Of a stretch of 64,000 bases of DNA, positions 50,853 through 51,996 are shown piece after piece. The translations under genes and the position numbers were made by a program. This DNA is from Clostridia bacterium (GTDB taxonomy: Bacteria > Bacillota > Clostridia > Christensenellales > CAG-138). The stretch's first letter is position 1. Each line of letters begins with the position of its first letter. The stretch covers positions 1 through 64,000 of the forward strand of contig JAUNJX010000005.1 in the NCBI GenBank assembly GCA_030533005.1, in the 5' to 3' direction. The notes under the pieces are model-generated. The model worked only from the letters and a program-made list of their open reading frames with translations. It did no database searches and was not told where the DNA came from.

Positions 50853-51134
50853 TTAGTCGTTTGCGACCATAAACTTGGTGCCGCAATTCTTGCATTTCAA
50901 GTTGACCGAACGATCGTCCGCGCTGCAAATGCGGAAGTTGGTGCTGCCGCAGCTGGGGCAGGCATACACCGCGCCGTCGGCATTTTTAAAGGAACAGGCC
51001 AACAGATGCTGCGGCAAGCTGACGTTGGACACAGGCTGATTGATCGCATTCCCCTGAAAATCATAATTGGTCGCGCCGCCCGCCACTTCGTCGAGCGATT
51101 CATCATTCATGGCGCTAAGCTTCTTTTCATCCAT
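50853..51134 (-). CDS. Small zinc-ribbon protein with double-glycine-type leader
   Basis: A 93-residue protein. Residues 1-21 (KKLSAMNDESLDEVAGGA) fit the leader of double-glycine peptides (LSxxELxxVxGG), which peptidase-containing ABC exporters cut after GG in bacteriocins, pheromones and RiPP precursors. After a 35-residue linker comes a zinc ribbon: CPSCGSTNFRIC and CKNCG, four Cys in two knuckles. AAGGAGG 9 bp before the ATG and a terminator behind it show a real single-gene unit. No peptidase transporter or modifying enzyme is in the window. It could instead be an intracellular zinc-ribbon protein with a chance leader; I do not know its function. Confidence 0.75.
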   Translation of the reverse strand: MDEKKLSAMNDESLDEVAGGATNYDFQGNAINQPVSNVSLPQHLLACSFKNADGAVYACPSCGSTNFRICSADDRSVNLKCKNCGTKFMVAND

Positions 51135-51236
51135 TATAATAGCCTCCTTGTGTTTTGTTCTTCCTGTATGCTCACTCTGTATGTTCGCTTCTTTATACGC
51201 TGGGATGCAGGGTTTGTTAGGTTCTCATACGCTATT

Positions 51237-51266
51237 TGTTATTTTACATCACAGGCGCTGCTTTTG
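51237..51266 (-). promoter_or_regulatory. Candidate promoter of the zinc-ribbon peptide gene
   Basis: On the minus strand TAGACA followed 18 bp later by TAAAAT, about 110 bp before the start codon. Coordinates are approximate to a few bases. Confidence 0.4.
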
Positions 51267-51306
51267 TCTATACGATGCGGCAGCAAGGGATTTTCCCCGC
51301 CGCGCG

Positions 51307-51960
51307 CTACAGGCTTTCGTCTATACAGGTCGATAAGACATGTTCAAGGTTCTCATAAAAGCGGGCGATATGCAGCCCGTCCACCAAACCGTGATGGCAG
51401 AGGATGGAGACCGGCATCAAAAGCCGCTCCCCCTGCCTTTCGTATTTGCCCCATGTGATGCGGGGATTGCTGTCCGCGGGGCTGGGCACAGGCTGTACGA
51501 GCGCTGTGTAGGAAAGCCACGGCATGGAGGAGATGAAAAACATGGGGAGGCTATCCGTGCCCTCCTCGTGAATGCCGCCCTGCTCGCGCGATTGCTTCTG
51601 CCGTTCCACAGCATAGGGTATGAATTGCGCGAGCGGCTTATCGCAATACAGCGCGCAATAGCAATAGGTGCCGTCCGGCTTCGCCACCGTGTTGGAGGTG
51701 GGGCAGGCGGAAAATTCCACGATCTCTCCCTCCTCAATGCGCTGCCGCAGCTCCGGCACCTGATTGGCGGCCTTTGCGGCACACCACAAGAAGGTCAAAA
51801 AGAAGGGAAAGCCCGCTTCCTTTGTGCGCTTGACAAAAGCCGTCACGTCCACCGTATGCGTAAGCCCCACATAGGGATAGCCCATGCCGCAAAAGTAGCG
51901 AAAATGCTCCCGCCGGGCATAGGCTCCCATATCGATACGCCTTTTTTCCATTTCACCCAT
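51307..51960 (-). CDS. Chloramphenicol acetyltransferase-like protein
   Basis: A 217-residue trimeric-CAT-fold acetyltransferase. The catalytic His motif CHHGLVDGLHIARF (HHxxxDG) is intact near residue 190; REHFRYF at the N-terminus and PRITWGKY are also family features. The length is that of type A CAT (about 219). Many chromosomal homologues in Clostridia do not confer chloramphenicol resistance, so the substrate is open. I chose the ATG at 51960 because GGAGGAG lies 5 bp upstream; an ATG three codons later is possible. Confidence 0.88.
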   Translation of the reverse strand: MGEMEKRRIDMGAYARREHFRYFCGMGYPYVGLTHTVDVTAFVKRTKEAGFPFFLTFLWCAAKAANQVPELRQRIEEGEIVEFSACPTSNTVAKPDGTYCYCALYCDKPLAQFIPYAVERQKQSREQGGIHEEGTDSLPMFFISSMPWLSYTALVQPVPSPADSNPRITWGKYERQGERLLMPVSILCHHGLVDGLHIARFYENLEHVLSTCIDESL

Positions 51961-51996
51961 GCCGGCTCCTCCTATACGCGAAAATCTTTCATCTAT

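Follow-up and report, generated by a model that had tools for sequence, protein, structure and literature searches.

How does a double-glycine (GG) leader come to stand in front of a zinc ribbon in a small gene with no exporter beside it, and what would the product of such a gene be for? The gene, P0002, lies on the minus strand of the window, i.e. the whole stretch of 64,000 nucleotides analysed here. Our analysis suggests that P0002 likely encodes a zinc-ribbon precursor, from which a small unmodified protein would be released and exported in trans by an NHLM-type exporter within an ECF-like regulon.

The leader and the ribbon motif on the minus strand, which the first-pass annotation of this DNA had pointed out, are both confirmed (Table 1). 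The precursor reads MDEKKLSAMNDESLDEVAGG up to the predicted cleavage site and ATNYDFQGNAINQPVSNVSLPQHLLACSFKNADGAVYACPSCGSTNFRICSADDRSVNLKCKNCGTKFMVAND after it. The leader has L-15, M-12, L-7, V-4, G-2 and G-1, the pattern of GG/PCAT substrates; the positions -15, -12, -7 and -4 are those at which GG peptides contact C39 peptidases (PMC7018657; PMC6959990). The first pass was right to read this segment as a leader for a C39 exporter, and its lengths need a small correction: the GG ends at residue 20, giving a leader of 20 residues instead of 21 and a product of 73 residues instead of 72. The strong ribosome-binding site, the terminator and the separate promoter that it claimed for the gene are all found, the promoter being probably an ECF-type box, and the terminator separates P0002 from a downstream class-V aminotransferase gene. 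Directly upstream of P0002, on the same strand, there is a chloramphenicol-acetyltransferase-like gene (PF00302, 3.7e-27, window positions 51307-51963), and a leucine-rich-repeat-like gene occupies this position in the sister species. We also considered a sigma-70 promoter for P0002 with a 10/12 match at 51241-51270 on the same strand; three sigma-70-like sites were found in the region where 0.8 are expected. This candidate was set aside in favour of the ECF-like box because it is farther upstream, in sequence that differs in the sister species, whereas the box is common to both.

Table 1. Features of P0002 in the window and genes of the exporter operon on contig C36
Feature	Position in window	Strand	Support
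P0002 gene, double-glycine leader plus zinc-ribbon precursor, 93 aa	50853..51134	-	74% identical orthologue, purifying selection
Leader peptide, residues 1-20, MDEKKLSAMNDESLDEVAGG	51075..51134	-	hydrophobic residues at -15, -12, -7, -4
Predicted exported product, residues 21-93 (73 aa)	50856..51074	-	cleavage after GG predicted from the C39 peptidase rule
Zinc-ribbon core, residues 59-91, C59xxC62-x18-C81xxC84	50862..50960	-	weak zinc-ribbon profile matches, model, invariant Cys
Ribosome-binding site AAGGAGG, 8 nt before ATG	51143..51149	-	
Promoter box CTAACA-N15-CGTATAA (ECF-sigma-like), exact match	51193..51220	-	same box at exporter operon and other GG peptide genes
Intrinsic terminator directly 3' of P0002 gene	50810..50830	-	hairpin z -3.8
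P0003, 96 aa, first gene of C36 operon, leader plus ribbon			59% identical to P0002, closest paralogue in genome
P0004, 73 aa, second leader plus ribbon peptide of C36 operon			
P0007, short HlyD-like adaptor of C36 operon			
P0005, C39 ABC exporter (ABC1) of C36 operon			TIGR03796, 965.3 vs cut-off 853.3 bits
P0006, second ABC protein (ABC2) of C36 operon			TIGR03797, 735.3 vs cut-off 709.4 bits

The ribbon of P0002 likely binds zinc, judging from its sequence. Its profile matches are weak and the best of them are zinc-binding families, with TIGR02098 as the only model above its cut-off, marginally (21.9 vs 20.9 bits). All four ribbon cysteines are invariant in the 10 of 10 aligned peptides of the genus. 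AlphaFold models place three strands in residues 67-91 with pLDDT of about 75-80, and have low confidence in the leader and the linker and a mean pLDDT of about 60 overall; a second model made from a deeper alignment is no better in confidence. The Foldseek matches of the model are non-significant and include zinc ribbons (aIF2-beta, NrdR). P0002 has no match to the NHLP/Nif11 leader models TIGR03793 and TIGR03798 at E values up to 10, and it scores 12.6 bits with Bacteriocin_IIc (PF10439), below the cut-off of 27.1.

No exporter is found close to P0002, as the first-pass annotation had observed in concluding that one acting in trans would be needed, and the C39 exporter that it proposed to seek elsewhere in the genome is indeed present. 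The genome of the window is a MAG of 2.26 Mb, about 85% complete, in which a single C39 domain was detected (C36:4023-4415, E 1.6e-36). The operon there has the order P0003, P0004, P0007, P0005, P0006, so that two peptides with leader and ribbon precede the exporter genes. P0005 and P0006 pass the NHLM equivalog cut-offs, and P0007 matches TIGR03794 over the N-terminal part only and scores 55 bits, far short of the cut-off of 156.2. P0005 retains Q13, C19, H93 and D109, which we take to be the C39 residues expected for the family. Short HlyD-like partners (about 140-167 aa) are found at many Clostridia NHLM loci, e.g. L006:4441-4920, and two that were tested matched TIGR03794 over the start only. 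Within the operon, a strong conserved hairpin separates the peptide genes from the exporter genes (L006:5020-5091 and L012:10240-10320, z about -3.9) and possibly limits read-through into the latter.

MAG STF1_245 (contigs JAQVRG010000062 and JAQVRG010000012), which represents another species of the genus, shows the same arrangement: it carries the same operon and, likewise away from it, a P0002 orthologue with 74% identity. In both species this gene is directly upstream of the class-V aminotransferase gene, followed by HU-like and EAL-like genes (names assigned by inspection). Between the two species dN is well below dS in the leader, the linker and the ribbon, each taken separately. Among the four long peptides, the four cysteines of the ribbon and 10 of 20 leader positions do not vary, and the leader pattern is kept in seven peptides of the genus, apart from a single deviation at -15. 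A scan of genome contigs for relatives returned only the sister species, so at this sensitivity the close family seems to be confined to the genus; viral contigs contained no relatives. A wider ribbon search of 396 genomes of the order gave weak ribbon-only matches in three other genomes (open frames of 447, 345 and 100 aa) and nothing else. Homologues with a ribbon and no leader, which the first pass had named as evidence against its own reading, were sought, and the clear homologues retain both leader and ribbon.

A promoter box that both have in common ties the seemingly lone P0002 to the distant exporter. CTAACA-N15-CGTATAA is found upstream of P0002 and its orthologue, of the exporter operon in both species and of a tandem peptide set on contig C89, with one exact occurrence in the window. 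There are 5 and 3 exact sites in the two genomes (8 in total) against about 0.1 expected, as computed for the 13 fixed bases, and allowing up to one mismatch gives 16 sites in the two genomes versus 2 for the reversed pattern used as control. Of the 16 sites, eleven stand directly before a GG peptide gene or the exporter operon; one of the eleven is placed there by synteny, across a contig break. The remaining five precede a LysM mini-protein gene (one), a PdaC/DUF3298 lipoprotein gene (two), an ECF sigma operon (one) and no obvious target (one). The two lipoprotein sites match between the species, the copy in the window's genome being at a contig end. The predicted export and co-regulation of P0002 are well supported at the level of sequence, and P0002 would be part of a scattered and coordinated secretion system, since it has its promoter in common with the exporter and with other export-tagged peptide genes.

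The box is probably read by an ECF sigma factor, which would place the regulon under ECF control. Thirteen aligned sites have a conserved AAC in the -35 element, a conserved CGT in the -10 element and a fixed spacing, and AAC and CGT occur at these places in studied ECF promoters (PMC6767563, PMC6713349). In the sister species the box stands ahead of an operon of two genes that includes one for an ECF-type sigma factor; in the window's own genome, a MAG about 85% complete, no copy of the box was found before an ECF sigma gene. ECF sigma genes usually regulate themselves. We also considered a sporulation sigma factor as the reader of the box and prefer ECF because of the sigma gene that follows the box in the sister species. 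Upstream of GG peptides in other genera no copy of the box was found, so this promoter regulation appears to be lineage-specific. The LysM mini-protein (L200:7130-7342) has no GG leader, follows an exact copy of the box and is near a pilin-like gene. Paired GG peptides without ribbons are also found under the same box (L199:9882-10320 and L201:4559-5017); the pair in genome G000 comes before genes for lamin-tail/CotH and VTC-domain proteins, and a similar CotH-type gene is near the pair on its contig in genome G001.

P0002 is not the lone gene that it had been taken for. Six double-glycine ribbon peptides were found in the window's genome, one of them cut by a contig end, and all are behind the promoter box of the exporter operon. 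A search with the peptide profile gave a further member at the edge of contig C75, which follows the exporter operon by synteny with the sister species, and the tandem set on C89, in which one member has AG instead of GG and one is apparently degenerate. The promoter search added a ribbon GG peptide on contig C73. The list of substrates for the genome may be incomplete. The member that looks degenerate is the third tandem ribbon peptide (L176:10108-10362), whose start and frame differ from those of its neighbour. Behind the C73 peptide (L198:1532-2580) lies the gene of a LytTR response regulator, possibly a second link to regulation.

Several other families of the class also have ribbon cargoes at their NHLM exporters. 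We applied one mechanical rule to 53 loci with an NHLM-type ABC1 from the family, the order and the class (822 kb, sampled unevenly) and to 481 kb of control DNA. The exporter loci have 39 GG peptides in 18 of 53 loci, and 16 GG peptides with CxxC..CxxC in 8 of 53, two of these eight being the genus's own; the counts are lower bounds because the scan misses unusual leaders. The control gave one spurious GG match and P0002 itself. The first-pass remark that a metal-binding cargo behind such a leader is unusual is supported. The joining of leader and ribbon in P0002 is not a matter of chance, since dN is well below dS and P0002 alone has the combination in the control. Other cargoes at NHLM-type exporters have LysM domains (E 3e-12 and 4e-11) or an SH3_3 domain (5e-13), and in other genera the GG leaders joined to LysM or SH3_3 beside such exporters are at L113:3936-4549, L050:7480-7713 and L121:10715-11740. 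At L124:12466-15222, GG peptides near an NHLM exporter have glycine-rich cores with repeated CFC/CAC motifs and are unlike ribbons.

We propose the following mechanism. An ECF sigma factor, most likely, would turn on P0002, the dispersed GG peptide genes and the exporter operon through CTAACA-N15-CGTATAA. The C39 domain of P0005 would bind the P0002 leader through its hydrophobic residues at -15, -12, -7 and -4, and P0005, working with P0006 and P0007, would cut after Gly20. The 73-residue chain would then be exported unfolded and free of metal. One PCAT is known to secrete a co-regulated set of GG peptides (PMC7018657). PCAT1 exports a 66-aa cargo that has no structure while in its cavity and is recognised by its leader alone (PMC6959990), so a ribbon would be expected to cross metal-free and fold outside. 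Outside the cell the four cysteines may take up Zn(II) and the chain may fold without enzymatic modification. In an anaerobe the thiols could stay reduced. As one of several related ribbons, the product might work at the cell envelope or close to it, or serve in antagonism or signalling. An envelope role is hinted at by the regulon members, antagonism by the exporter family.

These two roles are sub-cases of the proposed export and do not exclude it. In the first, the ribbons would be directed at the producing cell itself, as a coat on its surface or as a zinc buffer or sensor when the envelope is stressed, and we regard this as possible, in a tentative way. The likely ECF control argues for it, as do the copies of the box before the LysM protein, the PdaC/DUF3298 lipoprotein and the GG peptides beside the CotH/VTC operon, and MAM, a Faecalibacterium envelope protein that probably uses a PCAT, gives a precedent (PMC12184118). 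However, the peptides have no sorting signal or lipobox, and no metal-uptake gene was seen in the regulon. In the second role the mature ribbon would be an antibacterial peptide, unmodified and stabilised by metal, and its paralogues would make up a weapon set, i.e. a bacteriocin system; we consider this rather unlikely. NHLM and C39 exporters are mostly linked to bacteriocins, the GG peptides are multiple, small, variable and co-regulated, and the hairpin between the two peptide genes and the exporter genes is there in both species, as if peptide were made in excess. But no immunity gene or receptor was identified, inspection of the genes beside the peptides giving no immunity candidate, the ribbon and linker are conserved between the species and not diversified, and the LysM and SH3 domains among the other NHLM cargoes point to the envelope.

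Two readings do without the proposed secretion of an unmodified ribbon. Zinc ribbons are usually cytoplasmic folds, which counts against export, and the best ribbon profile and PDB matches of P0002 are intracellular proteins (Elf1, aIF2-beta, RNA polymerase subunits and HVO_2753). P0002 could in that case be an intracellular zinc-ribbon protein, e.g. a nucleic-acid-binding regulator, with an N-terminus that resembles a GG leader by chance or descent. This is quite improbable given that the leader is found in every clear homologue, under purifying selection and with all four contact positions, that sister genes are in an operon with a C39 exporter in two species, and that ribbon-only matches in the 396 genomes are weak and confined to three other genomes. 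A RiPP precursor with core cysteines modified by an enzyme in trans, which the first pass had allowed for, is very improbable. RiPP clusters often contain GG leaders and NHLM exporters, and some related leaders weakly match RiPP leader models. But among the RiPP enzyme classes looked for in the genome (about 85% complete, so absence is not absolute) no YcaO and no LanC-like protein was found, the radical-SAM enzyme suggested as a partner comes down, among SPASM proteins, to a SCIFF maturase (745 bits against a cut-off of 425), and the CxxC zinc-site geometry is kept in all members.

The secretion of unmodified ribbons would have wider implications. The usual reading of a C39 exporter is that it handles bacteriocins, RiPPs or pheromones. 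If NHLM-type exporters routinely carry ribbons, LysM and SH3 domains, many "bacteriocin export" annotations in Clostridia would in fact mark the secretion of small folded domains. Secreted zinc ribbons also raise the question of how a four-thiol metal site is loaded after passage of an unfolded chain, and a common promoter offers a route to in-trans substrates that resemble orphan genes. We speculate, at somewhat less than an even chance, that this is an undescribed ECF-sigma-controlled regulon of uncultured Clostridia, whose many scattered substrates all pass through one NHLM-type C39 exporter and whose unmodified, cysteine-rich ribbons take up metal and fold outside the cell. We found no report of zinc-ribbon cargo behind GG leaders in the literature covered, from which subscription journals were mostly absent. 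The parts are of known kinds, and their combination, i.e. an NHLM exporter with scattered substrates, an ECF-like promoter and ribbon cargo, was not found described in the literature searched.

Four known systems come close to this one. MAM of Faecalibacterium has a GG leader and is probably exported by a PCAT to the envelope (PMC12184118), but it is helical and encoded beside its PCAT, and no ribbon or dispersed regulon is described for it. The NHLM/NHLP "bacteriocin export" cassette (TIGR03796, TIGR03797, TIGR03794; Haft et al. 2010, PMC2887384) is matched in that ABC1 and ABC2 pass the cut-offs, an HlyD-like partner is present and small leader peptides are encoded in the operon. Our system departs from it in having a short classical GG leader instead of the long nitrile-hydratase/Nif11 leader, zinc-ribbon cargo with no modification enzyme found, a short HlyD partner below the cut-off, and substrates dispersed across the genome. 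In PCAT1-CtA of Clostridium thermocellum (PMC6959990), a C39 ABC exporter likewise takes a cargo that is about 70 residues long and follows the same leader rules, whereas in our system the exporter is encoded together with a second ABC protein and an adaptor, a Cys4 ribbon forms the cargo, and the substrates would be supplied in trans from several contigs. The pneumococcal rtg locus (RtgAB, PMC7018657) resembles our system in the use of one PCAT for a co-regulated set of GG peptides; rtg is one locus under the Rgg/SHP pheromone, whereas here the genes are dispersed behind an ECF-like promoter.
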